A stretch of DNA of 35,103 bases, taken from Puniceicoccaceae bacterium. GTDB lineage: Bacteria > Verrucomicrobiota > Verrucomicrobiia > Opitutales > Opitutaceae. Position 1 is the first letter of the stretch. Every line of letters begins with the position of its first letter. Below the pieces are notes generated by a model. That model was given only the letters and a program-made list of their open reading frames with translations. It did not search any database and was not told where the DNA came from. Shown one piece after another: positions 11,540 to 34,927 of this stretch. The position numbers and the translations under genes were made by a program. The stretch is from the NCBI GenBank assembly GCA_007695295.1, contig REEB01000120.1, forward strand, positions 1-35,103, given 5' to 3'.

Positions 11540-11549
11540 CTTCCGCAGA

Positions 11550-13376: not shown

Positions 13377-13393
13377 CTGAGCCGTGTGGTTTT

Positions 13394-13531
13394 GGTGCTT
13401 TGGTTTATTCTCATGCTATCCAAGCTACGGAGACAGAGCCCGCAGAAGGAGGGGGTCGATCCTGTTCAAGGATTCGTGCGGAATCGCACTTCAGACGCTC
13501 CGGGGCGCTGGATCTCATAGACCCGGATCAT
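13394..13531 (-). pseudogene. Decayed N-terminus of a zinc-type alcohol dehydrogenase/quinone reductase
   Basis: From an ATG at 13531 the minus strand reads IRVYEIQRPGASEVRFR before a stop. Shifting one base gives RILEQDRPPPSAGSVSVAW, and shifting again gives SMRINQS. Read in order, these follow the N-terminal pattern of medium-chain dehydrogenases/reductases (VxxHExGGPEVLRxEE..P.PGPGEVxVxVxAIGLNR). No downstream catalytic or Rossmann part follows. Two frame changes in under 140 bases and the missing body indicate a decayed remnant. The match is my reading by eye of a short, diverged stretch. Confidence 0.4.
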
Positions 13532-13631
13532 GATAGCCCGGTTCTTGGATTAGAGTTGTGCCGCTTATCAGCAACCTAGTCAGTCCAGGCAATCCGGGTC
13601 AAGGGATTGTTCCGGATTTCTCCCCGCGCGC

Positions 13632-13649
13632 TCACCGCGATGGCGGTGA
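13632..13649. terminator. Perfect 7-bp hairpin downstream of the hydrolase gene
   Basis: TCACCGC-GATG-GCGGTGA forms a perfect stem-loop about 90 bases beyond the stop of the alpha/beta hydrolase gene. No T tract follows on the minus strand, so a terminator role is only suggested by position. Confidence 0.3.
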
Positions 13650-13739
13650 TTCCTCAATGAGCATTGCTTCCGGAGCCTCCTGTCCGGTGTCCAGTGCCTA
13701 CCCCAATGTGATTCAAGGTGGCTCTGGCGTGGGCGATCG

Positions 13740-20155: not shown

Positions 20156-21025
20156 ATGAATTTTCCCAAATACTGGGCCAAAGGCAGCCATACCGGGACC
20201 GGACCGGACGGACGGGAAATGACCCTCGAAGCCTACGGCTGGTCCGAGCAGAGCGTGGATGAGGCGAAAGCGCTGGGCGGGGAACGGGCCCGGCGGGCCA
20301 TCGAACGCGGCTTCCTCTTCCAAAAACGGCGCGAATACGACTACGGGGACGCACCCCTGCGCGAGGAAGTGGTCGACCGCATCCAACTCGAAGGCCGCAC
20401 CATCGCTCTCATCACCCGCAACCGCTACGGGGCGCTCGTCCTCAACACCGCGCGGGTGATGTTCGTGGATGTGGACTTTCCCCGCCCGCCCCGCCCGCCC
20501 CCGGTCGGCATCCTCCAGAGCCTGCTCCTGCTCCTCGGCCGCGGCGAACCACCGCCCAAGCCACCATCAGCCGCCGAGCTGGGCATGCAGCGGCTCACCG
20601 CATGGGCCGCCGCCCACCCGGACAAAAGCCTCCGCATCTACCGCACCCGCGCCGGCCTGCGCCTCCTCTTCACAGACGCCCTCTACCAGGCCCGGAGCCC
20701 CGAAGTCGCCGGCCTGCTCGAAAGCCTCGGCTCGGATCCGCTCTACCGCCGCCTGACCGAGCGCCAGGACTGCTTTCGCGCCCGCCTCACCCCCAAGCCC
20801 TGGCGCTGCGGTCAACGCCGTCCGCCGGCACCGTATCCGCTTCTCGACGACACGGAACGGGCCGCCCACCGCCAGTGGGAGACCACCTACCATGAGACCA
20901 TCAAGGCGTTCGCAGTCTGCCGGCTCCTGGAAACGGTCGGTTCTCCCGCCGGACATCCGGAAGTGGAGAAAGTCATCGCCGTCCACGACGCCCTCACCCT
21001 CGACGGCGACAAACCCTTGGCCTGA
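20156..21025 (+). CDS. Conserved protein of unknown function
   Basis: A 289-residue protein without signal peptide or clear membrane span. It begins MNFPKYWAKG and has a charged N-terminal region with YDYGDAPLREEVV, which I believe recurs in uncharacterised bacterial proteins. VMFVDVDF is followed some 65 residues later by IYRTRAGLRLLFTD. That order resembles, weakly, the hhDhD and TxxGGxH motifs of archaeo-eukaryotic primase-like domains, but the histidine is absent and the match may be chance. Cysteines and an aromatic-rich C-terminal half follow. ATG at 20156 was chosen because upstream codons overlap the previous gene. Likely in an operon with the NTF2-like gene. Confidence 0.75.
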   Translation: MNFPKYWAKGSHTGTGPDGREMTLEAYGWSEQSVDEAKALGGERARRAIERGFLFQKRREYDYGDAPLREEVVDRIQLEGRTIALITRNRYGALVLNTARVMFVDVDFPRPPRPPPVGILQSLLLLLGRGEPPPKPPSAAELGMQRLTAWAAAHPDKSLRIYRTRAGLRLLFTDALYQARSPEVAGLLESLGSDPLYRRLTERQDCFRARLTPKPWRCGQRRPPAPYPLLDDTERAAHRQWETTYHETIKAFAVCRLLETVGSPAGHPEVEKVIAVHDALTLDGDKPLA

Positions 21026-21070
21026 CTCCGCCGGGCAGTCAGAACGGCACCTCCCGATCGCCCCGCATCC

Positions 21071-21262
21071 GTAGCGGAGCCGCGGAGCGGCTTCGTCTCC
21101 CAACGGCAACGGCCGGACCCTCCCCACGAAAGCGCATCCGCGCTTCCGCTACGCCCGGGCCACCTGCGCCCATAACAGGGCGCGGTCAACACGCGCCCCC
21201 TTAGTCTCCCAACGGCAACGCCGGACCCTCCCCAAGAAAGCGCTTCCACGCTCCCGCTGCGC
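21071..21262. repeat. Palindromic intergenic repeat with a duplicated half
   Basis: Bases 21071-21096 and 21126-21152 form an imperfect inverted repeat whose outer ends are GTAGCGGA and TCCGCTAC, enclosing a loop of about 30 bases. The loop plus right arm (21095-21154) recurs directly at 21204-21262 with about six differences in 60. The element lies between convergent genes and looks like a REP-type repeat present as one and a half copies. Confidence 0.65.
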
Positions 21263-21278
21263 GCAAAGGTGAACGCGG

Positions 21279-21695
21279 TCAGGCGAAGAGTTCGCCGTCG
21301 CGGAAAAAGCGCTTCAGCTCGGCCCGGGCGGTCTCCGGACTGTCGGAGGCGTGGACGACGTTTTTCATCACGTCGGTGCCGAAATCACCACGGATGGTGC
21401 CCTTGGCGGCCTTGGTGGAGTCGGTCGGACCGAGGAGTTCGCGGATTTTCTCGACAGCATTTTCACCGCGCAGGGCGAGAAAAATGACGGGGCGTGAACT
21501 CATGAAGGCCTCGATTTCGGGGAAGAAAGGTTTGTCCGCCACGTGAGCGTAATGCTCACGGAGGATCCGGCTGTCCAGGCGGGCCATCTTGCAGCCGACA
21601 ATCGCAAAACCGGCCTTTTCAAAGCGGTCGATCACCGTGCCGGCGATGCCCTTTTCGAGGCAGTCGGGCTTGAGAATGATAAAGGAGGTTTCCAT
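21279..21695 (-). CDS. ndk: Nucleoside diphosphate kinase
   Basis: Transfers the terminal phosphate from ATP to (d)NDPs through a phosphohistidine. The 138-residue product has the normal family length. SFIILKPD supplies Lys9, and NVVHASDSPETA contains the phosphorylated His115. It begins at ATG 21695, 17 bases after fabF on the same strand, so it is likely the last gene of the fatty-acid synthesis run. Some residues differ from typical Ndk (for example FMSSRPVIFLALRGENAV for the usual SGPVVAMVWEGENAV), but all the active-site elements I can check are present. Confidence 0.95.
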   Translation of the reverse strand: METSFIILKPDCLEKGIAGTVIDRFEKAGFAIVGCKMARLDSRILREHYAHVADKPFFPEIEAFMSSRPVIFLALRGENAVEKIRELLGPTDSTKAAKGTIRGDFGTDVMKNVVHASDSPETARAELKRFFRDGELFA

Positions 21696-21712
21696 GTAAA
21701 AGGCGGGCCGGA

Positions 21713-22966
21713 TCAGTCGATCGCCCGGAAGACCAGGCTGGCGTTCTGCCCGCCGAAGCCGAGATTATTGGTCAGGACGGCGCGCACCTTCGCCTGCCGG
21801 GCCTCGTTGGGAACGTAGTCGAGATCGCAGTCCGGATCAGGCTCCTCGTAATTGATCGTGGGAGGCACCGCTCCTTCGGCGATGACCTTGGCGCAGGCGG
21901 CGGACTCGATGCCACCGGCGGCGCCGAGGAGGTGGCCGGTCATCGACTTGGTCGAACTCATCATGAGCCGCCGGGCATGGTCGCCGAAGACGGATTTCAC
22001 CGCGAGGGTTTCAAACTTGTCGTTGTAAGGGGTGGAGGTGCCGTGCGCGTTGAGGTAACCGATCTCTTCGGGCCGGCACCCGGCGTCGGCGAGAGCCCGG
22101 CCCATGGCCAGGGAGAGCCCGCGGCCCTCGGGGTCGGGCTGGGTGATGTGATAGGCGTCGCAGGAGGCGGCATAGCCGGACAGCTCACAGTAGATGCGGG
22201 CGCCGCGGGCGCGGGCGTGCTCGAGGTCTTCGAGGATGAGAATGCCGGCGCCTTCGCCCATGACAAAGCCGTCGCGCCCGCGGTCGAAGGGCCGGCTGGC
22301 GCGGGTGGGCTCGTCGTTGCGCGTGCTCATGGCCTTCATGGAGCAGAAGCCGGCATAGCCGAGCGCGGTGATGGCAGCCTCGCTGCCGCCGGCGATCATG
22401 ACCTTGGCCTCGCCGGTGCGGATGGTCTTGAGGGCTTCGCCAATGCAATGGGCGGCGGTGGCGCAGGCGCTGACAATGGAGTAGTTGGGGCCGCGGGCGC
22501 CGAGATCGATGGCGACGATCCCGCTCGCCATGTTGGCGATGAGGGACGGGATCATGAAGGGGCTGATCTTGCGCGGTCCGCGCTCGAAAAGCACCCGGGC
22601 TTGGCTCTCGATGGTGTACATTCCGCCGATGCCGGAGCCGATGTAAACCCCGACCTGCTCGGGATTCTCGGTCGCGAGCTCAAGCCCCGAATCCTCCACC
22701 GCAAGCCGGCTGGCGGCGACGGCGAGGTGGGTGTAGCGATCGTTGCGGCGGACCTCTTTGGGATCCATCCAAGCGGTGGCGTCGAACTCGCGGACTTCGC
22801 CGCCGATTTTGCTGGTAAACTCCGCGGTGTCGAAAGCGGTCACGCGGTCGATGCCGCTGCGGCCGGCGAGCAGCGCATCCCAGAAGGGATCGATGCCAAT
22901 GCCGAGGGAGGTGACCACACCCAGCCCGGTGACCGCTACCCGAGTCTGGGAAGGGTTAGATGCCAT
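21713..22966 (-). CDS. fabF: 3-oxoacyl-[acyl-carrier-protein] synthase II (FabF)
   Basis: Condensing enzyme that elongates acyl-ACP with malonyl-ACP in type II fatty acid synthesis. The 417-residue thiolase-fold protein has the full triad: Cys168 in VSACATAAH, His308 in [11 protein letters not shown] and His345 in [12 protein letters not shown]. This is the Cys-His-His arrangement and spacing of E. coli FabF, shifted by five. The N-terminus [13 protein letters not shown] and the C-terminal [14 protein letters not shown] are typical. It lies between acpP (57 bases upstream) and ndk (17 bases downstream) on the minus strand. Confidence 0.97.
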
Positions 22967-23023
22967 GTCAGCAGGTGGCCGAAGAGCGCGAGCCGGCGCA
23001 ACGGTGCGAGATGCCGCGGTGGC

Positions 23024-23284
23024 TCAGGCGCCGGACTTTTGCTCGATGTATTTGATCACATCGCCGACGGTCTGGAGCTTCTCCGCATCGGTCTCGGGGA
23101 TCTCCCCGGCGATTTCGTCTTTGAACTCCTCTTCGAAGGCCATGATCAGCTCGACCGTATCGAGAGAATCGGCACCGAGATCATCCAGGAAGGAAGCTTC
23201 GGGCGTAATCTGCTCCTCGTTAACACTCAACTGGTTAACGATGATCTCTTTGACGCGTTGTTCGATGGATTTGGTGTCGGCCAT
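23024..23284 (-). CDS. acpP: Acyl carrier protein
   Basis: Carries growing acyl chains on a 4'-phosphopantetheine arm. The 86-residue acidic four-helix protein has the attachment site [10 protein letters not shown] with Ser40. The ATG at 23284 (MADTKSIEQ) gives the standard N-terminus; an in-frame ATG farther upstream would add 14 unlike residues. It lies between fabG (38 bases upstream) and fabF, the classic fabG-acpP-fabF order. Confidence 0.97.
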
Positions 23285-23322
23285 GGTGGTGGAAATTCGT
23301 GGGAGTAAGGAGCAATGGGACA

Positions 23323-24069
23323 TCACATCACCATGCCCCCGTCAACGGTAAAAACCTGACCCGTAATATAATTGGCCTCCTCAGAACAGAGGTAGGTGAC
23401 GAGGCCCGCGACGTCGGCCGGGGTGCCGTAGCGTTTGAGGGGGATGTTGGCCAGGATGGCGTCGGCGGCGGTCTCGGCGAGGGCGGCGGTCATATCGGTC
23501 TCGATGAAGCCGGGGGCGAGGGCGTTGCAGGTGATTTTGCGGGCGGCGAACTCCCGGGCGACGCTCTTGGTGAGGCCGATCATGCCGGCCTTGGCGGCGG
23601 CGTAGTTGGCCTGGCCGGCGTTGCCGCGCAGGCCGATGACGGAGGAGATGTTCACGATCCGGCCCCAGCGTTTCTGGGTCATGGGGCGGCCGAGGTGCTT
23701 GATCCAGTGAAAGCAGGCAGTGAGGTTGGTGGCCAGAACGCTCTCCCAGTCCTCGCTGCTCATGCGAAAGAGAAGTCCGTCCCGGGTAATGCCGGCGTTG
23801 TTGACGAGGATGTCCACATGGCCGATCTCGGCCTGGATTTTTTCGCAGGCGGCGGCGACCGCGGCGCCATCGGCCACATCGACGGCGAGGGACTCGGCCG
23901 CCCCCCCCGCGGAGCGGATGGCTTCGGCGGCGGAGCCGCAGCTCCCGGCGGATTTGCTGACGCAGATCACGCGCACGCCCTGGGCGGCCAAGTCGGCGGC
24001 AATGGCCCGGCCAATGCCGCGCCCGGCGCCGGTGACGAGCGCGGTTCGGTTTTCAAAGGTTAACTTCAT
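23323..24069 (-). CDS. fabG: 3-oxoacyl-[acyl-carrier-protein] reductase (FabG)
   Basis: NADPH-dependent short-chain dehydrogenase that reduces 3-ketoacyl-ACP. The 248 residues carry the cofactor motif TGAGRGIG (13-20), NNAG (90-93), Asn115 and the catalytic Ser143, Tyr156 and Lys160 in [28 protein letters not shown] and the C-terminal [11 protein letters not shown] are typical of FabG. It directly precedes acpP and follows the diflavin reductase by 36 bases. Confidence 0.96.
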
Positions 24070-24105
24070 GCAGCGGTGGGTCGGTGAATCAGGTGTGGGC
24101 TCGTT

Positions 24106-25272
24106 TCAGTAGACGTCGCGCTGGTAGCGTCGATCTTTTTTCATCTGCTTGACGTAGTCGGCGGCTCCGGCGGCGTCGAGCCCGGCGCCCTGGGCGATGA
24201 TGTCATGGAGGGCGGCATCCACATCCTTGGCCATGCGCTTGGCGTCGCCGCAGACGTAGAAGATCGCCCCACCGTCGAGCCACTTCCAAATCTCGGAGGC
24301 GTGCTCGAGCATGCGGTTTTGGACGTAGATTTTGTGTTCTTGGTCGCGGGACCAGGCGAGGTCGAGGCGGTGGAGCTTGCCGTCGCGGTGCCAGGCATCG
24401 AACTCCTCGCCGTAGAGGTAATCGGTGGCGTGGTGCTGGTCGCCGAAGAAGAGCCAGTTGCGGCCGGTGGCCCCGGTGGCGATGCGCTCCTGGAGAAAGG
24501 CCCGGAAGGGAGCGACCCCGGTGCCGGGGCCGACCATGATGATGTCGCGCTCGGGATCCTCGGGCAGGCCGAAGTGGGCGGAGGCGACGAAGACCGGCAC
24601 GGTTTGCTGGTGTGGCTGGACGCGGTCAGCCACAAAAGTCGAGCAAACCCCGAGCCGCTGGCGGTTGTTCGTCTGATACCGGACCACCGCGATGGTGAGG
24701 TGGACTTCATCGGGGTGGCAGACCGGGGAAGAGGCGATGGAGTAGAGCCGGGGCACGAGCTTGCGCAACTCGGGGACAAGTTCCTTGGGGTCGATCCGGG
24801 CGCCGGGAAACTCTTCCAGCAGGTCGATGATCTCGCGCTGGGAAAGGTAGTCCTGCAGCCGCTCGGCAAACTCCGGCATGAGGAGCTTTTCGAGCTGCTC
24901 GCGGGAGTGGGGGTTCTCCAGCCGCGGAAGGAGAAACTGGAGGGTCTTCTTTGTGGGCGTGGCGAGGGAAACCCGGCTGAGGAGTGCTTCGCACAGGGGA
25001 AGCACTTCATCCGAGCGCGGCGGGGAGACCGGCTCCTCGCCGGTGGCGCCGAGCAGCCGGATGACCTCCTCGACCAGTTCGGGGGGGTTCTGCGGAAAAA
25101 TCCCGAGGGAATCCCCGCACTTGTACGCGAGGCCGCTGCCCTTGATGTCGACCACGAAGTGGCGGGTTTCCTTGGCCGAGCCGGAGCCGCTGAGGAGGCG
25201 GTTTTCCCGGATGAGCGCGGGGAAGGGGTTGTCTTTATTATAGAGGGCCTGGGTAGCGGGGGTTGGATCCAT
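24106..25272 (-). CDS. Sulfite reductase flavoprotein-like NADPH:FAD reductase without flavodoxin domain
   Basis: A 388-residue FAD- and NADPH-binding reductase of the CysJ / cytochrome P450 reductase type. It contains the connecting domain and FAD site (PRLYSIASS, 174-182; GVCS, 208-211), the NADPH site (GPGTGVAPFRAFLQER, 248-263) and FYVCGDAKRMAKDV. It ends DVY, close to the C-terminal aromatic that stacks on FAD. The FMN-binding flavodoxin domain of CysJ is absent, so electrons must pass to a separate carrier or directly to a partner. Start ATG 25272 (MDPTPATQAL); the open frame continues upstream but reads as Pro/Gly-rich non-family sequence. No sulfite reductase beta gene lies nearby; the next gene is fabG. 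Confidence 0.88.
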   Translation of the reverse strand: MDPTPATQALYNKDNPFPALIRENRLLSGSGSAKETRHFVVDIKGSGLAYKCGDSLGIFPQNPPELVEEVIRLLGATGEEPVSPPRSDEVLPLCEALLSRVSLATPTKKTLQFLLPRLENPHSREQLEKLLMPEFAERLQDYLSQREIIDLLEEFPGARIDPKELVPELRKLVPRLYSIASSPVCHPDEVHLTIAVVRYQTNNRQRLGVCSTFVADRVQPHQQTVPVFVASAHFGLPEDPERDIIMVGPGTGVAPFRAFLQERIATGATGRNWLFFGDQHHATDYLYGEEFDAWHRDGKLHRLDLAWSRDQEHKIYVQNRMLEHASEIWKWLDGGAIFYVCGDAKRMAKDVDAALHDIIAQGAGLDAAGAADYVKQMKKDRRYQRDVY

Positions 25273-25420
25273 GTCGGCAGACGTGGAGAGTAGGCCACCC
25301 CCGGACGGCGGGGCAAGCGCGGACGGACCGCGCGGGAGTGGATTGCGCAGCGGGCGGGGGCCGGCCAAGCGGAGTGCCATCACGAAGAATGCGAGTCCAC
25401 CGAGACCATGCCGGGATGCC

Positions 25421-25554
25421 CTCCGCCCCGGCAGGGGCGGCGCACATCCGCAGAGGCCCCCTCAGCCCCGGCAGGGGCGACGGGAAATTAGCCGGTGGCG
25501 CCAGCCACCGGGAACCGGCCCACCCAAACCCTCCGCCGCAGCAGGAGCGGCGCA
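25421..25554. repeat. Cluster of short palindromic repeats
   Basis: Three perfect palindromes lie in series: CCGCCCC-GGCA-GGGGCGG (25423-25440), GCCCC-GGCA-GGGGC (25465-25478) and CCGGTGG-CGCCAG-CCACCGG (25492-25511). A 24-base unit at 25421-25444 recurs at 25531-25554 with about three differences. They sit after the stop of the sugar isomerase gene and upstream of the diflavin reductase on the same strand. They look like REP/BIME-type intergenic elements and could form transcript-stabilising or terminating hairpins. Confidence 0.65.
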
Positions 25555-25592
25555 TCGCTTCCCTACCAACCCGCTCTTTCACCGCGCCGGCC

Positions 25593-26378
25593 TCAGCCGA
25601 CTTTCAGGCCGGCGTCGAGCACCTGTTTCTCCAAGGCCTCGTAGGCGGCGGCATGCTCGGCGGCAAGGTCGCCCCAACCGCATTCAATCGAGAGGTCACC
25701 GCTGTAGCCGGTCTTGGCGAGGTTGTAGAGAAAGGGGCGGAAATCATCGCCGGCCACGCCGGGGGCGGTCCGCTTCTCCTTCTCCGCCAAATGCACGTGG
25801 GCGAGGAGGTCACCGGTCTCGAGCAGGATTTCCGGTCCCTCGCCATCACGCAGCATGTGGAAAAAGTCGGCCAGCAGACGGATGTTGGGGTGGCCGACTT
25901 CGCGAATGTAGCCGGCGCCTTCGGCCACGGTGTTGATGAAATTGCACTCGCCGGTGTTGAGGGGTTCGAGCACCACGGTGACGCCGTTGGCCTCGGCGGC
26001 GGGGGCGACCAGACGGAGGGCCTGCAAAAACTGCGCCCGCCCTTCATCGGGTGAAAATCCCTCGGGCAACCCGCGGGCGCCACCGCTGCCGAAGACGATC
26101 GAGCGGATCCCGGTGCGCTTGGCCCGCCGAAAGGCTGACTCCGCCCAGGCGACCAGCCGGGCCTCGTCGACTTTCGGACCCGTCACCTTGAGGTCGCCGG
26201 GCAGGAAGCAGTTGGCGGCGCGAACGGCAAGTCCGCCGGTTTTCGCAAGGTTGGCCTCGAAGTCGGCCTCAGGCTTTTCCGGAACGAGAAAGGACTGGAC
26301 ATTGGCTTCGACGTAGTGGAAGCGGAAGCCATTGAGGGAGGCGGCGGTTTCGGGGGCGGTGCAGATGCCGAGTTTCAT
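25593..26378 (-). CDS. Sugar phosphate isomerase/epimerase (hydroxypyruvate-isomerase-like)
   Basis: A 261-residue TIM-barrel protein of the AP-endonuclease-2 / xylose-isomerase-like superfamily. The metal-site residues are Glu138 in VVLEPLN, Asp171 in LLADFFHM, His197 in HVHLAEKEKRTAPG and Glu232 in LSIECGW. That HL.E...R..PG stretch is the pattern of hydroxypyruvate isomerase, tagatose epimerase and related ketose-metabolising enzymes. Activity could be isomerisation or epimerisation of a (keto-)sugar. It is the last gene of the minus-strand sugar unit, 22 bases after the uronate-isomerase-like gene. Confidence 0.85.
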   Translation of the reverse strand: MKLGICTAPETAASLNGFRFHYVEANVQSFLVPEKPEADFEANLAKTGGLAVRAANCFLPGDLKVTGPKVDEARLVAWAESAFRRAKRTGIRSIVFGSGGARGLPEGFSPDEGRAQFLQALRLVAPAAEANGVTVVLEPLNTGECNFINTVAEGAGYIREVGHPNIRLLADFFHMLRDGEGPEILLETGDLLAHVHLAEKEKRTAPGVAGDDFRPFLYNLAKTGYSGDLSIECGWGDLAAEHAAAYEALEKQVLDAGLKVG

Positions 26379-26400
26379 GGGTGCGGGGGTTGGTGGTGGA

Positions 26401-27651
26401 TCAGCGGGCGAGAAAGGCTTCGAAGGCGCCGCCGAAGAGGAGCCGGATGTCGCGCTCCAACTCTTTTTCGGTCACCTCCCAGCCGGTGGCGGCAAGGTCG
26501 CGGTATTTGTCCTTGAGGACGCGGGCGATGATCTCGCGGGAGTGCGTCCATTTATAAACGATCTGGTCGAGTACGCGTGCGTCGGAGTGCTGGGGGGTGA
26601 CGCTGAGGCCGAGCAGCTCCAGGCGCATCCGGGTCATGTCCTCGATGATGACCGGGTTGTTGAGAAACCACCAGCAGCCGAAGATGTGCAGGTTGCGGAA
26701 TTTCCGCGCCATCACGCAGAGCTGGTACTGGTTTTCGCGGGAGAGCACGGTGAGGAGAAACTTCACGTCGTCGTTCGCGGCGATCATCCGCTCAAAGCAC
26801 TCCAGATCGGAGCGGCCGACGGCGTCGCCGGCGAGTTGGAGGCCGGGGTTAAGACCGCGCTTCACCCCCGGCATCATGGCAAAGGGCAGGCCGCGCTCGC
26901 GGCAGAAGGGCAGCACGACTTTGTCGATGAGCTTCGCGGTGTCGGAGGAATCCGGATACTTGAAATCCCAGGGCAGGGAAACCATCAGGAAAAGCGGCTC
27001 CATCACCCCGGCCCAGTGATCGAGAAACCGCCGCAGCTCGGAGATGGTCTTGGCGTTGAGCGCGGGGGTGACGGCGTAGCCCTGCTCGCGCAGAAACGGC
27101 ACCGTGCCCTTCCAGTCGACCAAGAGGGGATCAACCCGCAGTGCGGCGGTGAAGCGCGGATCGCGCGCGAAGCCTTTTTCCCAGACCGGGTACTCGAGCG
27201 GGTCGAAGGGCGAGTTGGTCATGCAGATGGTGCGGACGTTGGCCGCCTCCATGCAGCGGGTGACGTGCTCGGCGGGCTTCTGCCGGGCGAACCACTTGCG
27301 CAGCTTGGGCAAGTCGCGCTTGCGCACGTCGAGCCCGAAGCGGTTGAGGGTCGTGAGAACCCCGCGGCAGGCCTCCGAGACCGGCGAATGCTTGAGAAAG
27401 AGTTCCTCCCAAACGAGGTCGGCCTGCTCGGTCTTGGAAAGCTTCCAAAAGTCTTTGTAGCTGAGATCGTGATACCGGAAGACCTCCGCCACGAGGTAGT
27501 GGTAGACGAGCAGATCGTCGATCCCCCAGAGCAGCAATTCGCCAAAGGCCGGGTCGTAAAGGTGGGTGTGGATGTCGTAGACCGGGGTCTTTTCGACCAG
27601 CCGGTCGATGGCCTTTTCGAGGCGGGCGGGCTTGAGGGCTTTGGCTTTCAT
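26401..27651 (-). CDS. Uronate isomerase (UxaC)-like protein, amidohydrolase superfamily
   Basis: A 416-residue metal-dependent TIM-barrel protein related to glucuronate isomerase (PF02614 type), which converts glucuronate to fructuronate. VYDIHTHLYDP gives the metal-binding HxH (His28, His30). VFRYHDLSYKDFW, TNSPFDPLEYPVW, RVDPLLVDW and the ending QHSDARVLDQIVYKWTHSR follow the family order. Length is near the lower end for UxaC (about 430-470), and identity to canonical UxaC looks low, so the substrate may differ from glucuronate. The ATG at 27651 was chosen over earlier in-frame starts that lie inside the neighbour. It lies 10 bases after the preceding isomerase gene, so they are tightly linked. 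Confidence 0.8.
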   Translation of the reverse strand: MKAKALKPARLEKAIDRLVEKTPVYDIHTHLYDPAFGELLLWGIDDLLVYHYLVAEVFRYHDLSYKDFWKLSKTEQADLVWEELFLKHSPVSEACRGVLTTLNRFGLDVRKRDLPKLRKWFARQKPAEHVTRCMEAANVRTICMTNSPFDPLEYPVWEKGFARDPRFTAALRVDPLLVDWKGTVPFLREQGYAVTPALNAKTISELRRFLDHWAGVMEPLFLMVSLPWDFKYPDSSDTAKLIDKVVLPFCRERGLPFAMMPGVKRGLNPGLQLAGDAVGRSDLECFERMIAANDDVKFLLTVLSRENQYQLCVMARKFRNLHIFGCWWFLNNPVIIEDMTRMRLELLGLSVTPQHSDARVLDQIVYKWTHSREIIARVLKDKYRDLAATGWEVTEKELERDIRLLFGGAFEAFLAR

Positions 27652-27661
27652 GGCGGAGATC

Positions 27662-28435
27662 TCAGGGGGCGACGAGGTGGTCGCGGATGTAGTCGAAGCT
27701 CTGCCGGATGGAGTCGAAGGGATCTCCGGGGCAGGTGTCCTGCTCGACGATGAACCATTCGCAGCCGGCCTTCTCCGCGGCCGCCACGATGCGGCGGAAG
27801 TCGAGGTTGCCGTTGCCGATTTCGCAGAAGGTGGGCTTGTTTTCCGTGGTGAAGGTGTAGTCCTTGAGATGGATGAGTGGCATGCGGCCGGCCATCTTTT
27901 CGCACCAGGCGACGGGATCGCCGCCGCCATACTGCACCCAATAGGTGTCGAGCTCGGCCTTGAGGTGGGCGGGCTTGGTGCCGGCGTAAATGGCGTCGAG
28001 CACGGTGGCGTCGCCGTGGCGGACGAATTCGATCCCGTGGTTGTGGTAGGAGAGGGTCTGCCCGGCGGCGGCGAGCACGGCTCCGGCCTGGTCGAGCCCC
28101 TCGATGAGCGCGGCCACGCTCTTCGGGTCGCCGAAGTCCACCCCCCGGGGGAAGGGGTAGGCGGTGTGGGGGCAACCGAGCTTCTTCAACCGGTCGACCA
28201 CCTTTGCCGGCTCCTGCAGGATGGTGTCCGACCCCTCATGGGTGGCGCAGCAGACGAGGCCTTCGCCCTTGAGGATGCGCACGATCTCCTCCTCGGGGAT
28301 GGGGCCGATGGCGCTGAGCTGGACCGCGGTGTATCCGATTTCCCTTACTTTCTTGCAGGCAGCGGTGAAGTCCGCGGCGGTTTTCGCATGTTCGCGGAGG
28401 GTGTAAAACTGGAGGGCGACTTGTTCGAGTTTCAT
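27662..28435 (-). CDS. Sugar phosphate isomerase/epimerase (IolE/IolI-like fold)
   Basis: A 257-residue AP-endonuclease-2-fold TIM barrel. LEQVALQFYTLREH opens the barrel. YHNHGIEF (130-137), ELDTYWVQYGGGDPV (161-175), IHLKD (188-192), EIGNGNLDF (205-213) and FIVEQD (228-233) are the metal and substrate signatures of this branch. Relatives include myo-inosose-processing enzymes and many uncharacterised proteins paired with Gfo/Idh/MocA dehydrogenases. It is 27 bases after such a dehydrogenase here, so it probably acts on that enzyme's keto-sugar product; this is inference from context. Confidence 0.88.
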   Translation of the reverse strand: MKLEQVALQFYTLREHAKTAADFTAACKKVREIGYTAVQLSAIGPIPEEEIVRILKGEGLVCCATHEGSDTILQEPAKVVDRLKKLGCPHTAYPFPRGVDFGDPKSVAALIEGLDQAGAVLAAAGQTLSYHNHGIEFVRHGDATVLDAIYAGTKPAHLKAELDTYWVQYGGGDPVAWCEKMAGRMPLIHLKDYTFTTENKPTFCEIGNGNLDFRRIVAAAEKAGCEWFIVEQDTCPGDPFDSIRQSFDYIRDHLVAP

Positions 28436-28462
28436 GGATGCGGGGGGGGCGGAGCTTGAGGA

Positions 28463-29626
28463 TTAGAAGGATTTGGAGAAATCCTCGGCCGGGGCGGCTT
28501 TGGCGGACTTTTTCACCTTCTCCTGATAGCGGGAGCCGGCGATGAGCTTTTTCAGGTGCCGCTCGTAGGCCTTGGCGTCGAGTGGCAGCTCCACGGTTTT
28601 GCCGAGGAAGGAGGAGAAGAGCATGGCGTTGCCCAGCTCTACGGAGTGGATGCCTTCGACGGCCGGCGAGATCAGCGTCGCCTTGTCGAGGATGGCGTCG
28701 ACAAAGTTGGTCAGGATGCCGTTGTGCTGGCTACCATGGTTGGGGGCGGGGATGGTCACGTCCCAAGTCTCCGGGCGGGCGAAGGAGCCGGGATGGGTGC
28801 GGGAAAATTCGCTCATCGGCTGCACGTTGCGCCGGTAGGTGATGCGGTCGTCCTCGTAGACGACCCGCCCCTGCTCGGCGGTGATTTCGAGGCGGTTGGT
28901 GCCGGGCGCCTCGCCGGTGGAGGTGATGAAAACCGCATGGGATCCATCGGCGTATTCCATGTAGGCGGTGACGTCGTCCTCGACTTCGATGTCGTGGTAA
29001 CGCCCGATGGCGCAGGTCGCCCGAACCCGCACCGGCATGCCGAACATCCATTGGAAGAGGTCGAGGTTGTGGGGGCACTGGTTGAGCAGCACGCCGCCGC
29101 CCTCGCCCCCCCAGGTGGCGCGCCAGCCGCCCGAGGCGTAGTAGGCTTCGGTCCGGAACCAGTTCGTGATGATCCAGTTGATCCGCCGGATGGTGCCCAG
29201 CTCGCCGCTGCGGATGAGGTTGCGGATCTTGATGTAGTAAGGATCGGTGCGCTGGTTGAACATGGCCGCGAAGACCTGCTTTTTCTCCCGGCCTTTGTAG
29301 GCGGCGATGAGCTTCTCGGCATCCGCCTTGTGCACCGAGACCGGCTTCTCGACCATCACATGCAGGCCCTGCTTGAGCGCCTCGATCCCGAGGGTGGTGT
29401 GAGCGTAGTGCGGGGTCGCAATGATGACGGCGTCGACTTTCCCGGACGCCAGAAAAGCCTTCGGATCCTCGTAGCGGGCCAAGTCCTCAAAGGGCTGGAG
29501 GCGCTGGGGGTTGAGATCGCAGACGGCGGCAAGGGTGGCCCGGGGCACTTTGCCGGCCTTGAGGCTGGCGGCGTGGGCGCTGCCCATGTTGCCCAATCCG
29601 ATGATTCCGAAGCGTAGTGATTTCAT
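28463..29626 (-). CDS. Gfo/Idh/MocA family oxidoreductase
   Basis: A 387-residue NAD(P)-dependent sugar or polyol dehydrogenase. The Rossmann motif is FGIIGLGNMGSAHA (6-19), the family motif VEKPVS (92-97) supplies Lys94, and NQCPHNLDLFQWMFG gives the C-terminal domain signature. The extra C-terminal tail is rich in Lys and Ala (ends KSAKAAPAEDFSKSF). The ATG at 29626 was chosen for the family N-terminus; the upstream open frame is antisense to the divergent gene. It leads a tightly packed minus-strand unit of four genes. Confidence 0.93.
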   Translation of the reverse strand: MKSLRFGIIGLGNMGSAHAASLKAGKVPRATLAAVCDLNPQRLQPFEDLARYEDPKAFLASGKVDAVIIATPHYAHTTLGIEALKQGLHVMVEKPVSVHKADAEKLIAAYKGREKKQVFAAMFNQRTDPYYIKIRNLIRSGELGTIRRINWIITNWFRTEAYYASGGWRATWGGEGGGVLLNQCPHNLDLFQWMFGMPVRVRATCAIGRYHDIEVEDDVTAYMEYADGSHAVFITSTGEAPGTNRLEITAEQGRVVYEDDRITYRRNVQPMSEFSRTHPGSFARPETWDVTIPAPNHGSQHNGILTNFVDAILDKATLISPAVEGIHSVELGNAMLFSSFLGKTVELPLDAKAYERHLKKLIAGSRYQEKVKKSAKAAPAEDFSKSF

Positions 29627-29801
29627 AAAACGGGGGGGTTGAGGGTGACCCGGGAAGCGCCCGGAGCGACTGATCCAACAGGTGTAGGATCGGGGCGGCG
29701 GATCTGTCAAACCTTTCACCCCGCCGCTGGCGAAAACAACCCCGCCGGATGGGATTTTCTTGCCCCCGACGGGCCGCAAAGTCAGACCGACGGGCTTTCC
29801 C
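29627..29801. promoter_or_regulatory. Divergent control region of the sugar island
   Basis: These 175 bases separate the two divergent sugar-oxidation units. They contain an inverted repeat, GATCC-N10-GGATC (29672-29691), and a 9-base direct repeat CCGACGGGC at 29766-29774 and 29787-29795, 21 bases apart and just upstream of the ATG at 29802. Either could bind a regulator; the 21-base phasing is two helical turns. No regulator gene is present in the window. Confidence 0.4.
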
Positions 29802-30866
29802 ATGAGCTCCACCAAACCCCTTCGTATTGGTTTCATTGGTACAGGCGGCATCGCCCTCAACGCCCACCTCCCGGCCTGGCAGGCCTGCCCCGACACCGAG
29901 ATTGTCGCCGTCGCCGATGTCTCCGAAGAAGCCGCCCGGAAGTTCGTCATCGCCACCGGCGGCCAGGCGCAGGTCTTCGCGGACTACCGCGACCTCCTCA
30001 GACTCGACCTCGACGCGGTCGACGTCTGCACCCCGAACAAGGTTCACACACCCGCCGTGGTGGCCGCCCTCGAAGCCGGCAAGCACGTGCTCTGCGAAAA
30101 ACCCCTCGCCGTTTCCACCGGCGAGATCGAGGCCATCGGTGCGGCGGTGAAAAGCTCCGGCAAGGTGCTGATGAGCGCCCAGCACCTGCGCTTCACGCCC
30201 GCCGCCCGCGCCATCCGCGATTGGGCCGACCAAGGCAACCTCGGCGAGGTCTACTACGCCCGCGTCCAGGCCCTGCGCCGCAACTTGCTCCCGGCCCGCC
30301 CGGGTTTCACCGATGTCAGCCTCTCCGGCGGCGGGCCGTGCTTTGACATCGGCGTGCACGCCCTCGACCTCGCGCTCTGGCTGATGGATTTCCCCACGCC
30401 GGTCCGCGTCACCGGCACCACCCGGGTCAACTTCGCCAAAGGCCACAAGATCCCCGGTCTCTGGGGCAACTGGAGCCGGGAGGCGTTTTCCGTGGAGGAC
30501 TTCGCGAGCGGCTTTATCCACTTTGACAACGGCGCCACCATGGCCATCGAGACCTCCTGGCTCGGCCACCAGCAGGAAAACGAGGTCATGGCCTGCCAGC
30601 TCTACGGCCTCGAAGGCGGCGTCAAGTGGCCGTCGACCGAGTTCGCCTCCACCACCGGCACCACCTTCACCCAAGGCAGCCTCACCTCCTCCGCCAATGC
30701 CGGCAAGCCCCACCACGAGGTCGTCAAGGCCTTCGTCGCCTCCATCCGCGAAGGCATCCCGCCGGCGGTGCCCTGGACGGAAACCCTCAAGGTCATCGCC
30801 ATCCTCGAAGCCATCTATCGCTCCGCCCGCGAGGGCCGGGAGATCGCGATCGACGCCACCCCGTAA
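29802..30866 (+). CDS. Gfo/Idh/MocA family oxidoreductase
   Basis: A 354-residue NAD(P)-dependent dehydrogenase. IGFIGTGGIALNAHLPAW (9-26) is the nucleotide-binding motif, LCEKPLAV (97-104) holds the conserved Lys100, and GGGPCFDIGVHALDLALWLMDF is the C-terminal domain signature with the usual Asp and His. The C-terminus GIPPAVPWTETLKVIAILEAIYRSAREGREI is the typical closing helix. The ATG at 29802 was preferred because an earlier in-frame start lies in the control region. The next gene on this strand, another Gfo/Idh/MocA dehydrogenase, begins 36 bases after its stop. Confidence 0.94.
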   Translation: MSSTKPLRIGFIGTGGIALNAHLPAWQACPDTEIVAVADVSEEAARKFVIATGGQAQVFADYRDLLRLDLDAVDVCTPNKVHTPAVVAALEAGKHVLCEKPLAVSTGEIEAIGAAVKSSGKVLMSAQHLRFTPAARAIRDWADQGNLGEVYYARVQALRRNLLPARPGFTDVSLSGGGPCFDIGVHALDLALWLMDFPTPVRVTGTTRVNFAKGHKIPGLWGNWSREAFSVEDFASGFIHFDNGATMAIETSWLGHQQENEVMACQLYGLEGGVKWPSTEFASTTGTTFTQGSLTSSANAGKPHHEVVKAFVASIREGIPPAVPWTETLKVIAILEAIYRSAREGREIAIDATP

Positions 30867-30902
30867 CAGCACTCCCACTACATCCACCCCACCGCCCCCG
30901 CC

Positions 30903-31907
30903 ATGGCCCGCCTCGCCTTTCTCTCCACCGCCCACATCCACACCCGCGGCTTCATCGAAAACGTGCTCAAGGCCGGCGACGGCCGCACCATCGCCGGCAT
31001 CTGGGACGACGCGGCCGACCGCGGCCGGCGCTATGCGGAAAAGGCCGACGCCCACTTCGAGCCCGATCTCGACCGCCTGCTGCACAACCCCGAGGTGGAC
31101 GGCTTCGTCATCTGCGCGGAAAACACCCGCCACCTCGACCTGCTCCGCCGGGCGCTCCCGATCGGCAAACCCGTTTTCTGCGAAAAACCACTCGTGACCA
31201 CGGTCGATGACCTGGCCGAACTCCGCCGCCTGCTCGCCGTCCACCCCACCCCTCTCTGCAGCGGCTACTTCCAGCCCTTCAGCCCCGCCCTCCGCAGCGC
31301 GGCCGGGTTGATCGCGGCAGATGCTTTCGGCGCCATCACCCGCATCCGCTACCGCAACGCCCACCACGCCGCCTACGGCCGGTGGTTCGACTCGCCCGAC
31401 CTCGCCTGGTTCACCGACCCCGCTTTATCCGGCGGCGGCGGCTTCATGGACATGGGCACCCACGCCCTCCACCTCGTCCGCACGCTCTTCGGCCCCGCCA
31501 CCGAAGCCTGGGCCGAGATCGCCAACCACTCCGGCCAATATCCGGCCTGCGACGACTACGGCATTGCCCACCTACGCTTCGCCAACGGCATCCTCGGCAC
31601 CATCGAAGCCGGCTGGACCCAGACGGGCGGACTCCAGGGCCTCGAAATCACCGGCGCCAAGGCCTGCCTCTGGAACACGCCCGACGGCTACGTGCTCGGC
31701 GCCCCCGGCGAGCCGCCCGCCCCGCTCGCCATCACCGCCCAGGCCCGGCCCAGCACCATCGACCGGCTCGTCGCGATCATCCGCGGCAGCCTCACCGAAG
31801 AGGAGTGGCGCGCCGATCTCGAAGCCGCCCTCGACACCGTCGCCCTCATGGCCGCCTGCTACCAGTCCGCGGAAACGAAAAACTGGACCGGCGTCGCCCG
31901 TCCCTAA
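30903..31907 (+). CDS. Gfo/Idh/MocA family oxidoreductase, divergent N-terminus
   Basis: A 334-residue member of the same superfamily, with FCEKPLVT (92-99, Lys95) and GGGGFMDMGTHALHLVRTLFG in the C-terminal domain. Its first strand reads LAFLSTAHIHTRGF rather than the glycine-rich GxGxxG of its neighbours, a variant seen in a subgroup of this family, so cofactor binding may differ. It is probably co-transcribed with the upstream dehydrogenase, and the two are too different to be recent duplicates. Substrate unknown. It converges with the paralogous envelope-protein genes, 40 bases away. Confidence 0.9.
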   Translation: MARLAFLSTAHIHTRGFIENVLKAGDGRTIAGIWDDAADRGRRYAEKADAHFEPDLDRLLHNPEVDGFVICAENTRHLDLLRRALPIGKPVFCEKPLVTTVDDLAELRRLLAVHPTPLCSGYFQPFSPALRSAAGLIAADAFGAITRIRYRNAHHAAYGRWFDSPDLAWFTDPALSGGGGFMDMGTHALHLVRTLFGPATEAWAEIANHSGQYPACDDYGIAHLRFANGILGTIEAGWTQTGGLQGLEITGAKACLWNTPDGYVLGAPGEPPAPLAITAQARPSTIDRLVAIIRGSLTEEEWRADLEAALDTVALMAACYQSAETKNWTGVARP

Positions 31908-31947
31908 AAAGCAGAGCCTGCCAAAGGCTGTTACACCCGGCCGGTCC

Positions 31948-33138
31948 TCAATCGTCCGGCCGCGTCCAGCGGCCCAATCCACTCCGGCGGTAGTTGTCCC
32001 AGACCTCCGCGCCTCCGAGGCGGATGATCTCCCTTTCTCCTCGCCGCAGCAGTTCCACGTAGGCCTCTGCATAAGCCTCGGGCTGCTCCACCAACGTGCC
32101 ATACAAGCGGGTATGCTCCTTCGCGATGCCAAGCATCGCCTCCAGCAGGTCCAATTGCTGTGGGAGCGGGGTTTCCTCAGGATGCGGCAACACTTCCTCA
32201 CGAAACTGCCGGTACCGCCGGTCGGTGCTGGCCAACAACTGGGCCATGCGCTCATCGCCGAGAACGGCCCGCTCCGCGCGCAACAGATTGAGCTCCGCCC
32301 CCTGCCGCGCCCCCGCCACAGGTTCATTTTGAGCCCTGAGAAAATCCTCGTAGGCTTCGAGCAAAAGCAATCGCTCATCCCGGCTGGCCTCGACCACCGC
32401 CAACCGGTTGCGCTGCAAGCTGCCGCCCGTGGTTTGCCGGAGACGGAATTCATCAAATTCCGGCGGCGTCAAAAAGGTCTCCACCGCCGCAGCGAGATCA
32501 GACGCTTCACTCCGGGAGCGGTCTCCGGCTGCCTGCTGCGCTGTGGCCCGGCGGGCGGTCAACAATTCGAGACGTTCCCGCTCGATGCGCCTCAACTGCG
32601 GGGATGGCATCGACCCATAGGCAGCCTGCAGGTGCCGCTGGCGAACCGAAGACATCGCCCCGGAACCCCCGGTCATCAGCGCGTCGATTGCTTCCTGGCG
32701 TTCAATGAAGCGGGCATTCGCCAACAAGCGGGCTTCTTCCGACAAGCGGGGGTCTTCCGACGGCGTTTCCTCCTCCGCCAGGGGCAGCAGCCCGGGTGGG
32801 GCATGGGATTGCAGCAGAGCGTTGAGCCCCATCCAGATGGCCTCATCCGGCAAACCCAACACCCTCAAAGCCGGGGGCAGGGCTTCCAGGTCGGCTTGCT
32901 GCACCCGGTCCCAGTCAATCCCCCGCATCCGGTCGGCCGCCCGGGAAACGTCCTCCATGCGGGGATCCGGCGCAACGGCCGGCGCGGACGGCGGCGCCCC
33001 CTTTTCCTCGCGGCTGGCCCCGGCCGCCTCAGTCGCCTCCGGCTCCACCGGCGGTTCCGGTTGGACGAGGCGAAGGGTCAGCAGGAGCGCCACCAGCAGG
33101 GAAACCGCCAACAATGCACTTGGGATCCCGTGCTTCAT
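31948..33138 (-). CDS. Membrane-anchored protein of unknown function (paralogue B)
   Basis: A 396-residue protein with one N-terminal hydrophobic segment (about residues 6-24, SALLAVSLLVALLLTLRLV) without a clear cleavage site, then a Pro/Glu/Ala-rich linker and a charged, helical body. No known domain is recognised. It is paralogous to the gene immediately upstream: LGLPDEAIWMGL matches LGLPDTLIRGMV there, AVLGDERMAQLLASTDRRY matches ELLGDERFHEMAGRSATYF, and LGGAEVWDNYRRSGLGR matches IGGEEAWNRYRNSPTGR. It begins 18 bases after that gene's stop, so the two are almost certainly one operon. A periplasmic or envelope role is inferred from the anchor. Confidence 0.75.
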   Translation of the reverse strand: MKHGIPSALLAVSLLVALLLTLRLVQPEPPVEPEATEAAGASREEKGAPPSAPAVAPDPRMEDVSRAADRMRGIDWDRVQQADLEALPPALRVLGLPDEAIWMGLNALLQSHAPPGLLPLAEEETPSEDPRLSEEARLLANARFIERQEAIDALMTGGSGAMSSVRQRHLQAAYGSMPSPQLRRIERERLELLTARRATAQQAAGDRSRSEASDLAAAVETFLTPPEFDEFRLRQTTGGSLQRNRLAVVEASRDERLLLLEAYEDFLRAQNEPVAGARQGAELNLLRAERAVLGDERMAQLLASTDRRYRQFREEVLPHPEETPLPQQLDLLEAMLGIAKEHTRLYGTLVEQPEAYAEAYVELLRRGEREIIRLGGAEVWDNYRRSGLGRWTRPDD

Positions 33139-33156
33139 TTCCGGCTCACCTCTGCT

Positions 33157-34410
33157 TCAGGGCTCATCGTCCGGGGCGGTGGAGGAACGCGGAGCATGCG
33201 CCCCTTCGCGGTTGAACCATCCTTGTAAGCGAGGATTGTCGACCTCTTCATGAATGAAAAAGAGTCGGCCGGTCGGCGAGTTTCGGTAGCGGTTCCATGC
33301 CTCTTCACCCCCGATGGCCGTGAGGCGCTCTTCGACTTCGCCGGCAAATGCCGACATGACGCGGTCGCGGTCTTCGGGTCTGGCTCGATATTGCCCCCAA
33401 AGTTCGGAGTGCGCTTTGCCAAGGTCAACGATCTCGAACCAAAAATCCAACTGGGCGGAAGGCGGCATGGTCTGGGGCAGGATCCGCTGCAGGCCAGGGA
33501 AATAGGTCGCTGAGCGTCCCGCCATTTCATGAAAACGCTCGTCACCCAGCAGCTCGCGCCGCGAGCGCATCATTTCGACCTCCAAGGCGCCGAAATCCGG
33601 GTCCCTTGCAATGCTGGCTGAAGTTAAGTTCCGCTGCCATTTCAGCAACTTCGAGAGCTCCTGGGGCGTCACGTCCAGGTCTCCCAGTTCCCGCCTCACC
33701 TCCGACCCGGATACAGTCGCGTGCAGCGCGTAGCTGTCCCACTCTTCGTCGGTGAGAAGAGGCCGGATTTCCTCGAGGAAATCCCGCTCCATGGCCAGCA
33801 TTCGCCGCCGGAAACCCTCTGCCGGTGAGGAAGACTCCGTATCCCAAGCCCAATATTGCCGAGCTGCGATCGTCTCGATCTCGAGGAGCTTGTCGGGCGG
33901 CACCTTGCCGTAGCGGCGGCGAAGTTCCTCCCCCTCGGCATCGGTCATTCCCACCGTCCGGCCTCCCATCGCCTGGTCGATCATGGCCTGCATCTCGAGC
34001 CGGAGCTGACTCTGGGCGCGCATCTGTCCCTGGGTGGCGTGAACGGAAGGTTCGCCCCCAAAAAGGCGCGCCGTGCGGTTCTGCAACCACTCCCGCGCAA
34101 GAGTGACCACCATGCCGCGGATCAAGGTGTCGGGAAGTCCGAGGGACCGCAGGTGCCGGACCAGCTCGTCGAGTTCAGGGTCCTGCTCCGGGTGCCACGT
34201 CCAGTGCGAAAAGTAGGCCACGGCGGCGTCCGGAACCCAATGTTCAGGGTTCGCCTGCGTCGCGATGGTTTCAACACCATGCACCGCCCGGGCCTCACCC
34301 GGTCCCGGGTCGGCCGGCGCCGAACCCGCATGCCCCTTGCCCGCACGCCATAAAAAAGCGTTCAGGAGGATAGAAAAGGCGAGCAGTGTCCAAAGCATCC
34401 CTGCGCGCAT
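33157..34410 (-). CDS. Membrane-anchored protein of unknown function (paralogue A)
   Basis: A 417-residue protein from the ATG at 34410, with an N-terminal hydrophobic segment (MLWTLLAFSILLNAFLW) followed by a helical, charged body. Residues around LDFWFEIVDLGKAHSELWGQ and IGGEEAWNRYRNSPTGRLF align with the downstream paralogue. No recognised domain is present. The upstream in-frame extension was rejected because it overlaps non-coding sequence. It is first of the pair; the small secreted-protein gene ends 46 bases upstream on the same strand. The function is unknown, but the shared layout (single anchor, long helical ectodomain) suggests two subunits of one envelope assembly. Confidence 0.75.
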   Translation of the reverse strand: MRAGMLWTLLAFSILLNAFLWRAGKGHAGSAPADPGPGEARAVHGVETIATQANPEHWVPDAAVAYFSHWTWHPEQDPELDELVRHLRSLGLPDTLIRGMVVTLAREWLQNRTARLFGGEPSVHATQGQMRAQSQLRLEMQAMIDQAMGGRTVGMTDAEGEELRRRYGKVPPDKLLEIETIAARQYWAWDTESSSPAEGFRRRMLAMERDFLEEIRPLLTDEEWDSYALHATVSGSEVRRELGDLDVTPQELSKLLKWQRNLTSASIARDPDFGALEVEMMRSRRELLGDERFHEMAGRSATYFPGLQRILPQTMPPSAQLDFWFEIVDLGKAHSELWGQYRARPEDRDRVMSAFAGEVEERLTAIGGEEAWNRYRNSPTGRLFFIHEEVDNPRLQGWFNREGAHAPRSSTAPDDEP

Positions 34411-34456
34411 GACACGCCCTTTCTGGGCTCTCGCGGCCACGGGGTCAATCCGGCAG

Positions 34457-34927
34457 TCATTCAAACAAAACGTGGTCCATGCCGGGCCAAACCACGGCTG
34501 ATAGTGGCCAGCCACTAGCATTAAGGGAAGCCCATAAGGTGGCAGAAATTACTCCCAACCCTGGAGGATACCAACCCCAATCATTCAATGGATCCATGCT
34601 TCCCCATATCATAACTAAGTCATTAAAGTGAGGACCTTGAGTGCTGCCAAGGAGGGTTTCCGGCACATACTCAATCCAATCGGTCATTTGACCAATCGGG
34701 TAAGTCGGAAGTCTATACTGCATTTCCCCACGGTGATAATGGGTTGCAAAGTCCAGAGTTTGAAATCCGGCTTGTGCCGAAGTAAACTGAGGACCAGCTT
34801 GCCAGGGGAAGGGGTCAGGAGCATCCATTTCTTCTTGAAAGTAATAGGTATCCCCAGAGACCACAAGACGGCCAAAGGCTAGCAAAAACAGAATAAATAC
34901 TGTGGTGGAAAATAATTTATGTGTCAT
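34457..34927 (-). CDS. Small secreted protein of unknown function in AT-rich DNA
   Basis: From the ATG at 34927 the product has 156 residues: a signal peptide-like start (THKLFSTTVFILFLLAFGRL, cleavage probably near VVSG) and a mature part unusually rich in Trp, Tyr, Pro and Phe (DTYYFQEEMDAPDPFPW, NDWGWYPPGLG). No family is recognised. In-frame ATGs at 34948 (MFFRKIV) and 34978 are alternatives; the former adds a basic n-region. A TTGACA lies at 34961-34966 on the minus strand without a matching -10. The DNA is far more AT-rich than the rest of the window, and the frame enters GC-rich sequence only near its 3' end, so the C-terminus may be a fusion or truncation. Confidence 0.6.
   Translation of the reverse strand: MTHKLFSTTVFILFLLAFGRLVVSGDTYYFQEEMDAPDPFPWQAGPQFTSAQAGFQTLDFATHYHRGEMQYRLPTYPIGQMTDWIEYVPETLLGSTQGPHFNDLVMIWGSMDPLNDWGWYPPGLGVISATLWASLNASGWPLSAVVWPGMDHVLFE

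Follow-up and report, generated by a model that had tools for sequence, protein, structure and literature searches.

A predicted keto-intermediate hexuronide operon with a BH0493-type uronate isomerase, beside a separate Gfo/Idh pair, in a Puniceicoccaceae genome

Introduction

Six sugar-enzyme genes, named A to F here, stand together on contig REEB01000120.1 (our contig C17) of a Puniceicoccaceae bacterium; the whole contig of 35103 bases is the window of this analysis, and its genome (4.6 Mb in 278 contigs) is listed as 98.55% complete. The locus raises two questions: do these genes serve one pathway, and what kind of substrate would it open? The original prediction read them as a single island that oxidises a sugar, uronate or glycoside to a keto form and then processes the product. 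From the sequence comparisons described below, we concluded that the six genes are two separately conserved modules, D-C-B-A (module 1) and E-F (module 2). For module 1 we propose, with a probability of roughly 0.55, an operon that would break a hexuronide by a keto-intermediate route instead of by a hydrolase. The best-supported reading remains that a uronate or glycoside is oxidised to a keto intermediate, which is then processed.

Results

Genes D, C and A

The best solved relative of D is 8tdi, named 'P2B11 Glucuronide-3-dehydrogenase', at 287 bits; the next one scored 117, which leaves a lead of 170 bits. A lysine and a histidine are catalytic in Gfo/Idh enzymes, and in D the corresponding Lys95 and His187 (P0002 numbering) are invariant in 41 of 41 orthologs. 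D thus has the sequence features by which a glycoside 3-dehydrogenase was defined, namely a Gfo/Idh protein with the catalytic Lys and His, and we propose that it is a uronide (glucuronide/galacturonide) 3-dehydrogenase. The family models for IolG (D 111, E 106 and F 75 of a cut-off of 355 bits) and for levoglucosan dehydrogenase (D 54, E 95 and F 48 of 650 bits) were not reached by any of the three oxidoreductases of the island.

For C, the best solved relative is 8bvk (94 bits), followed by 8tcs, 8tcd, 3l23 and 8tct at 46-57 bits. The structure 8bvk is AtOGE, an O-glycoside beta-eliminase in which the metal is bound by His132, Asp163, His189 and weakly by Glu233, and in which His134 is the catalytic base (PMC10628242, excerpt). 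We observed that the positions of C matching His132, His134, Glu161, Asp163, His189 and Glu233 are invariant in all 16 orthologs, so the HxH, Asp, His and Glu of an AtOGE-type AP2-fold eliminase are all present in its sequence. Its best family is the inosose dehydratase IolE, at 56 bits and below the cut-off of 290. We propose C as a 3-keto-uronide beta-eliminase that would perhaps act as a hydratase also.

The second AP2-fold protein, A, has as best solved relatives TM_0416 (70 bits), 3kws, sugar isomerases and keto-sugar epimerases, and its best family is the 5-keto-L-gluconate epimerase IolO (83 bits, below the cut-off of 300). Residues Glu138, Asp171, His174, His196 and Glu232 are invariant in nine of nine orthologs. 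A has a Glu-Asp-His-Glu metal site like that of keto-sugar epimerases, and is a candidate hydratase or epimerase. Its single-sequence structure model (mean predicted local distance difference test score, pLDDT, of 46) was too poor for a fold search. DgpBC chains were not among the solved matches of C or A at E 0.001, in a comparison that included no search for DgpB itself.

Gene B

B had been taken for a diverged UxaC, a reading that the comparisons make more specific. B has no Pfam match, and its sole NCBIfam match, glucuronate isomerase, scored 22.6 of 387 bits, whereas the UxaC proteins of relatives score 600-603; it therefore falls outside canonical UxaC as delimited by PF02614 or the NF002794 cut-off. 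Its only strong solved relative is BH0493, with 468 bits over residues 13-415 of B, which is nearly the full length. The metal and substrate residues of this type are kept, as the HxH, Arg171, Asp356 and Arg358 are invariant in 72 of 72 sequences. BH0493 is a uronate isomerase that converts D-galacturonate to D-tagaturonate (PMC2684587, excerpt, citing Nguyen 2008). By homology and conserved residues, B is a BH0493-type uronate isomerase.

At E <=1e-50, a B-type gene was present in none of 114 further genomes from this family and order (1 of 115 with the window's own genome counted), and this absence suggests horizontal gain of B. A scan of named genomes, from which records very near the window's genome were possibly left out, yielded 77 loci with B relatives (L002-L078), mostly from Verrucomicrobiota and with a best identity of 67%, in which B lies mostly amid unrelated genes. 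In a tree of 72 proteins, built with 71 of the 77 loci after six fragmentary ones were dropped, the window's B has no close kin; its branch (100/99) comprises 46 rows, almost all of which carry the label Verrucomicrobiota. None of the 77 loci, 44 of which extend >3 kb to both sides, carries a C, A, E or F relative or UxaC at the thresholds used. A pairing of B with D outside the window was seen only at L069 (Phycisphaerales, thus another phylum; 56-2791), where a D relative (42%) is divergent from a B relative (49%). At L061 (Bacilli; 8823-13714) the genes after the B relative encode a LarA-like protein, an FGGY kinase and a short-chain dehydrogenase/reductase that scores best with the D-mannonate oxidoreductase model (259 of 281 bits). 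Both exceptions are relevant to the function of B, and we count them in favour of the hexuronide route.

Several B-type loci gave Gfo/Idh and AP2 matches of 43-83 bits, which we took as family background, and a uronate neighbourhood shared by BH0493-type genes was not seen in Verrucomicrobiota. The commonest neighbour of B-type genes, in 11 loci (L013, L078, L017, L037, L035, L002, L053, L024, L046, L073 and L047), is a divergent gene of about 480 residues; the single member scanned had no Pfam or NCBIfam match. Other neighbours scanned were DUF2851, EamA, TPR and sigma-70 proteins. In seven loci, most of them from the Chthoniobacter group, the gene immediately after the BH0493-type one encodes an EamA-type transporter (e.g. 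L056:7281-8180).

The surroundings of D in related genomes

Of the 115 genomes from this family and order, with the window's own included, 51 contain a D relative (E <=1e-40). There were 58 matches outside the own genome, and we examined 40 of them, from 39 genomes; two of the 18 left scored above the last one taken. Set bit thresholds gave the following numbers of loci with a given gene near D: C in 15, canonical UxaC in 14, a diverged Gfo/Idh protein that we call G4 in 12, A in eight and LacI in seven (six divergent from and adjoining D, one 3.8 kb off on the same strand). C and A are mutually exclusive across the 40 loci. UxaC is accompanied by C in eight of its 14 loci, by A in three and by neither in three. 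At least one of C, A and UxaC is near D in 26 of the 40 loci, five have only G4 and nine have none of these. The counts cannot be read as a probability, since the genomes are related and hence not independent. As controls, 12 loci with E or F and 77 with B relatives were examined at the same thresholds, except 200 instead of 300 bits for D; UxaC, C and A were found in none of them, and one E-F locus had G4.

The usual orders, all on one strand, are D-C-UxaC and D-UxaC-A, and L130 has UxaC ahead of D. A scan of eight of the 14 UxaC genes assigned every one to PF02614, at 627-657 bits. The company persists although order and partners differ from one locus to the next, which argues for a functional link among these genes. 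In the window, with the order D-C-B-A, B occupies the UxaC position of both usual orders. The finding of a different isomerase type in the same slot is a natural experiment, and it argues that the job of the slot is to isomerise the freed uronate. Since UxaC is near D in 14 of 40 loci, and C or A as well in 11 of these, we predict that uronic acids are released without a glucuronidase in many bacteria of the order. Such release would escape annotation by glycoside-hydrolase families.

G4 itself scores weakly for the Rossmann domain, and near its N-terminus it has an H-x-H-like stretch reminiscent of F (e.g. L141:1106-2176); six of its loci beside D also have C.

Downstream enzymes in the genome

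The absence of the classical follow-on enzymes beside the island, as first noted, holds genome-wide for the four Pfam families searched: PF02614 (UxaC), PF03786 (UxuA), PF08125 (Mannitol_dh_C) and PF04295 (GD_AH_second) have no match in the window's genome. As positive controls, they were found in 7, 5, 7 and 5 of 14 genomes, respectively. PF08125 and PF04295 are the families of the E. coli-type UxuB/UxaB and UxaA. With PF03786, PF04295 and PF08125 all unmatched, the genome does not show the E. coli-type UxuA/UxaA dehydratase and UxuB/UxaB reductase that define the Ashwell pathway. UxuA is over the cut-off in 17 of 20 chosen D-bearing relatives, 12 of the 14 with UxaC among them (many matches are partial), and this makes the window's genome unusual.

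KDPG (2-keto-3-deoxy-6-phosphogluconate) aldolase is present in the genome, and nine enolase-superfamily proteins are over the cut-off. Seven of them were scanned, one being cut by a contig end, and none reaches a dehydratase cut-off; the nearest are L191, with 299.5 of 311 bits for galactonate dehydratase, and L194, with 369 of 550 bits for ManD. By eye, the surroundings of these two contain no evident uronate operon. The window thus poses the question of what consumes the isomerase product without the classical enzymes.

Island layout and the E-F pair

The six open frames lie in two divergent, tightly packed units (Table 1), as the original prediction had described, and Pfam together with the BH0493 homology bears out the families assigned to them, that is, three Gfo/Idh/MocA proteins, two AP2-fold proteins and a uronate isomerase. 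The gaps are 22 bases (A/B), 10 bases (B/C), 27 bases (C/D) and 36 bases (E/F). Relatives of A-F in other genomes show about 40-68% identity over most of their length, which indicates genuine genes. A scan of 25300-32100 did not find a sigma-70-like promoter, and terminator-like sites were no commoner than in shuffles. The 'one control region' proposed earlier is thus supported by the divergent layout with its shared intergenic bases, and not by any promoter or terminator signal above chance.

Table 1. Features of the island in the window
Feature	Position	Strand	Description
Gene A	25593-26378	minus	AP2-fold enzyme, Pfam AP_endonuc_2
Gene B	26401-27651	minus	BH0493-type uronate isomerase (by homology)
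Gene C	27662-28435	minus	AP2-fold metal enzyme, Pfam AP_endonuc_2
Gene D	28463-29626	minus	Gfo/Idh/MocA oxidoreductase (Pfam)
D/E divergent intergenic region	29627-29801		175 bases, without good palindrome or promoter match
Gene E	29802-30866	plus	Gfo/Idh/MocA (Pfam), DgpA-like
Gene F	30903-31907	plus	Diverged Gfo/Idh/MocA (Pfam)

When the recurrence of the gene order in relatives was checked, the six-gene order was found in this window only, and each half was found to recur. The reading of the island as one unit is therefore not borne out: D with C or A and UxaC, and E with F, recur separately and were not seen together outside the window. E relatives with 50-62% identity are present in 11 of 114 other genomes. 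Among 12 loci with E or F, E is followed by F in seven, E is alone in four and F in one; at the thresholds applied, D, C, A and B are missing from all 12. Likewise, none of the 40 D loci has E, F or B beside D. Two relatives (G033 and G112) carry both D and E-F, on different contigs, and no E or F lies near their D at these thresholds.

The nearest solved relative of E is DgpA (7xr9, 205 bits), and Lys99 and His185 of E are invariant in 12 of 12 sequences. F has S-T-A-H-x-H in place of the GxGxxG stretch; the two histidines of this motif, as well as Lys95 and His187 of the catalytic type, are invariant in eight of eight sequences. F is without a near solved relative (best 59 bits), and its structure model, made from F aligned with E and D, had a mean pLDDT of 51, too poor for a fold search. 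By sequence, E-F is a separate conserved Gfo/Idh pair with at most a putative share in the D-C-B-A pathway. Genome G021 has its F gene broken into two frames (L183:6834-7825). Paralogs of E lie elsewhere in the window's genome (G000), at C271:30249-31286 (40%) and C51:26959-28005 (34%).

Proposed pathway and alternative explanations

The gene identities, the retained catalytic residues, the recurring operon slots, the place of B in the UxaC slot and the four unmatched families were established by comparison; every reaction, the substrate and the step of A are what we infer. In the hexuronide route, D would use NAD+ to oxidise the uronic acid residue at its 3-OH. C, as an AP2-fold enzyme with a divalent metal, would then take the C2 proton via the histidine matching His134 of AtOGE and expel the aglycone by beta-elimination. 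Hydration by C or A would follow, and D would reduce the 3-keto uronate with the NADH from the first step, leaving the free hexuronate. Such a cycle would be redox-neutral since the same NADH is reused. Finally, B would isomerise the freed hexuronate to a 2-keto acid, tagaturonate or fructuronate. An extended version is quite improbable in our view, namely a self-contained uronide catabolism without glucuronidase or Ashwell enzymes, where D, C and A free the hexuronate, the transplanted BH0493-type isomerase forms the 2-keto uronate and E-F replace UxuB/UxaB, feeding an enolase-superfamily dehydratase and KDPG aldolase.

Several observations weigh against hexuronide cleavage. C, A and UxaC are all missing from 14 of the 40 D loci, nine of which are also without G4 (one of the nine, L120, carries a C fragment that is truncated at the contig end and below the threshold, and another, L121, begins near the end of its contig). 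Loci with A in place of C have no C-type eliminase candidate beside D, the similarity of C to AtOGE amounts to just 94 bits, and A may be either a hydratase or an epimerase. Moreover, a D relative is not near B in 76 of the 77 other B-type loci, of which just 44 hold >3 kb on both sides, and the four Pfam families searched leave the genome without classical enzymes to consume the product of B. The main rival is a free-sugar-acid route with an IolO-like A, in which no glycosidic bond is cut: D would oxidise a hexuronate or sugar acid in its free form, the keto acid would be epimerised or dehydrated by C and A, and B would interconvert uronate and 2-keto acid. The whole would be a free-uronate or L-sugar-acid route of the IolO/LguG kind. 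IolO and IolE are indeed the best families of A and C, and the metal site of A does not speak against such a role. In Luteolibacter, another member of Verrucomicrobiota, an IolO-like enzyme epimerises 5-keto-L-gluconate to D-tagaturonate (PMC12632266, excerpt). D-Tagaturonate is also a product of BH0493. However, the scores of D for IolG, A for IolO and C for IolE are far below the curated cut-offs, and D and C are nearest to glycoside-cleavage enzymes. The continuation in Luteolibacter, moreover, has an annotated altronate oxidoreductase and altronate dehydratase, whose usual Pfam families, which we take to be PF08125 and PF04295, are unmatched in the window's genome. We consider this route unlikely.

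A single pathway of all six enzymes, in which E and F share the substrate of the other four and might, for instance, oxidise the glycoside for C or reduce the product of B, would agree with the close divergent layout across 175 shared bases, with the likeness of E to DgpA, a glycoside 3-oxidising type of enzyme, and with the unmatched classical reductases (PF08125), which leave room for E or F. We regard it as rather improbable, since in 12 loci E-F recurs as a module that lacks C, A, B and D nearby, the 40 D loci have no E, F or B, and the two relatives with both D and E-F keep them on different contigs. It is very improbable that common paralogous families merely landed together and that B is unrelated to D and C. 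Gfo/Idh proteins are numerous (on a first look the genome had 55 E candidates and 47 F candidates), the six-gene order was seen only in the window and B is alone among the relatives; but the same-strand gaps within D-C-B-A are just 10-27 bases, C, A or UxaC accompanies D at 26 of 40 loci, and B falls into the UxaC position of both recurring orders. We therefore favour the hexuronide route for D-C-B-A.

Relation to known pathways

The closest parallel is the AtOGE pathway of Agrobacterium (PMC10628242, excerpt) together with 8tdi: an oxidoreductase and a Mn-dependent AP2-fold eliminase are the nearest matches of D and C, with the residues kept. The first oxidation in Agrobacterium is carried out by a flavoenzyme (PMC10628242, excerpt), whereas the window's operon has a built-in uronate isomerase and its second AP2-fold protein is of the epimerase type. 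In the levoglucosan pathway, which consists of LgdA, LgdB1, LgdB2 or LgdB3, and LgdC, two Gfo/Idh and two AP2-fold members split oxidation, elimination, hydration and reduction in a manner comparable to that proposed for the window, and the second AP2-fold types are mutually exclusive (PMC10066097, excerpt), like A and C in the 40 D loci. The low levoglucosan dehydrogenase scores of D and E and the added uronate isomerase set the window apart. B shares the HxH, Asp and Arg with BH0493 of Bacillus halodurans, but B adjoins a dehydrogenase and an eliminase, whereas BH0493 stands alone. E is nearest to DgpA among the C- and O-glycoside 3-oxidoreductases DgpA and D3DgpA, with Lys99 and His185 kept; unlike in the DgpA system, its conserved partner is F, and no DgpBC-type pair was identified in the island. 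The Ashwell pathway (UxaC, UxuB/UxaB, UxuA/UxaA, 2-keto-3-deoxygluconate kinase, KDPG aldolase) has in common with the window's genome a hexuronate isomerase, here B, and KDPG aldolase, while PF02614, PF08125, PF03786 and PF04295 are unmatched.

The suggestion that the route is possibly new holds for the gene set and not for the cleavage chemistry, which is of the kind known from AtOGE, levoglucosan and C-glycoside pathways. Each enzyme type is known as well; what is new is the uronate isomerase in the operon, the BH0493 type in the UxaC slot and the missing classical continuation. We recognised no paper that describes this gene combination in the one open-licence library searched. Part of the D-C arrangement may already have been described in a Nature 2024 paper on a broad-specificity keto pathway, to which we take 8tdi, 8tcd, 8tcs and 8tct to be tied.

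Flanking regions

Neither a transporter nor a regulator lies inside the island, and the GC (guanine plus cytosine) content is even over 21,000-33,000, at 0.63-0.70. By eye, one flank contains an apparent nucleoside diphosphate kinase, FabF, acyl carrier protein and FabG. At 31948-34521 of the window, two adjoining minus-strand genes of 396 and 454 residues have similar C-terminal ends by eye and are possible tandem duplicates.

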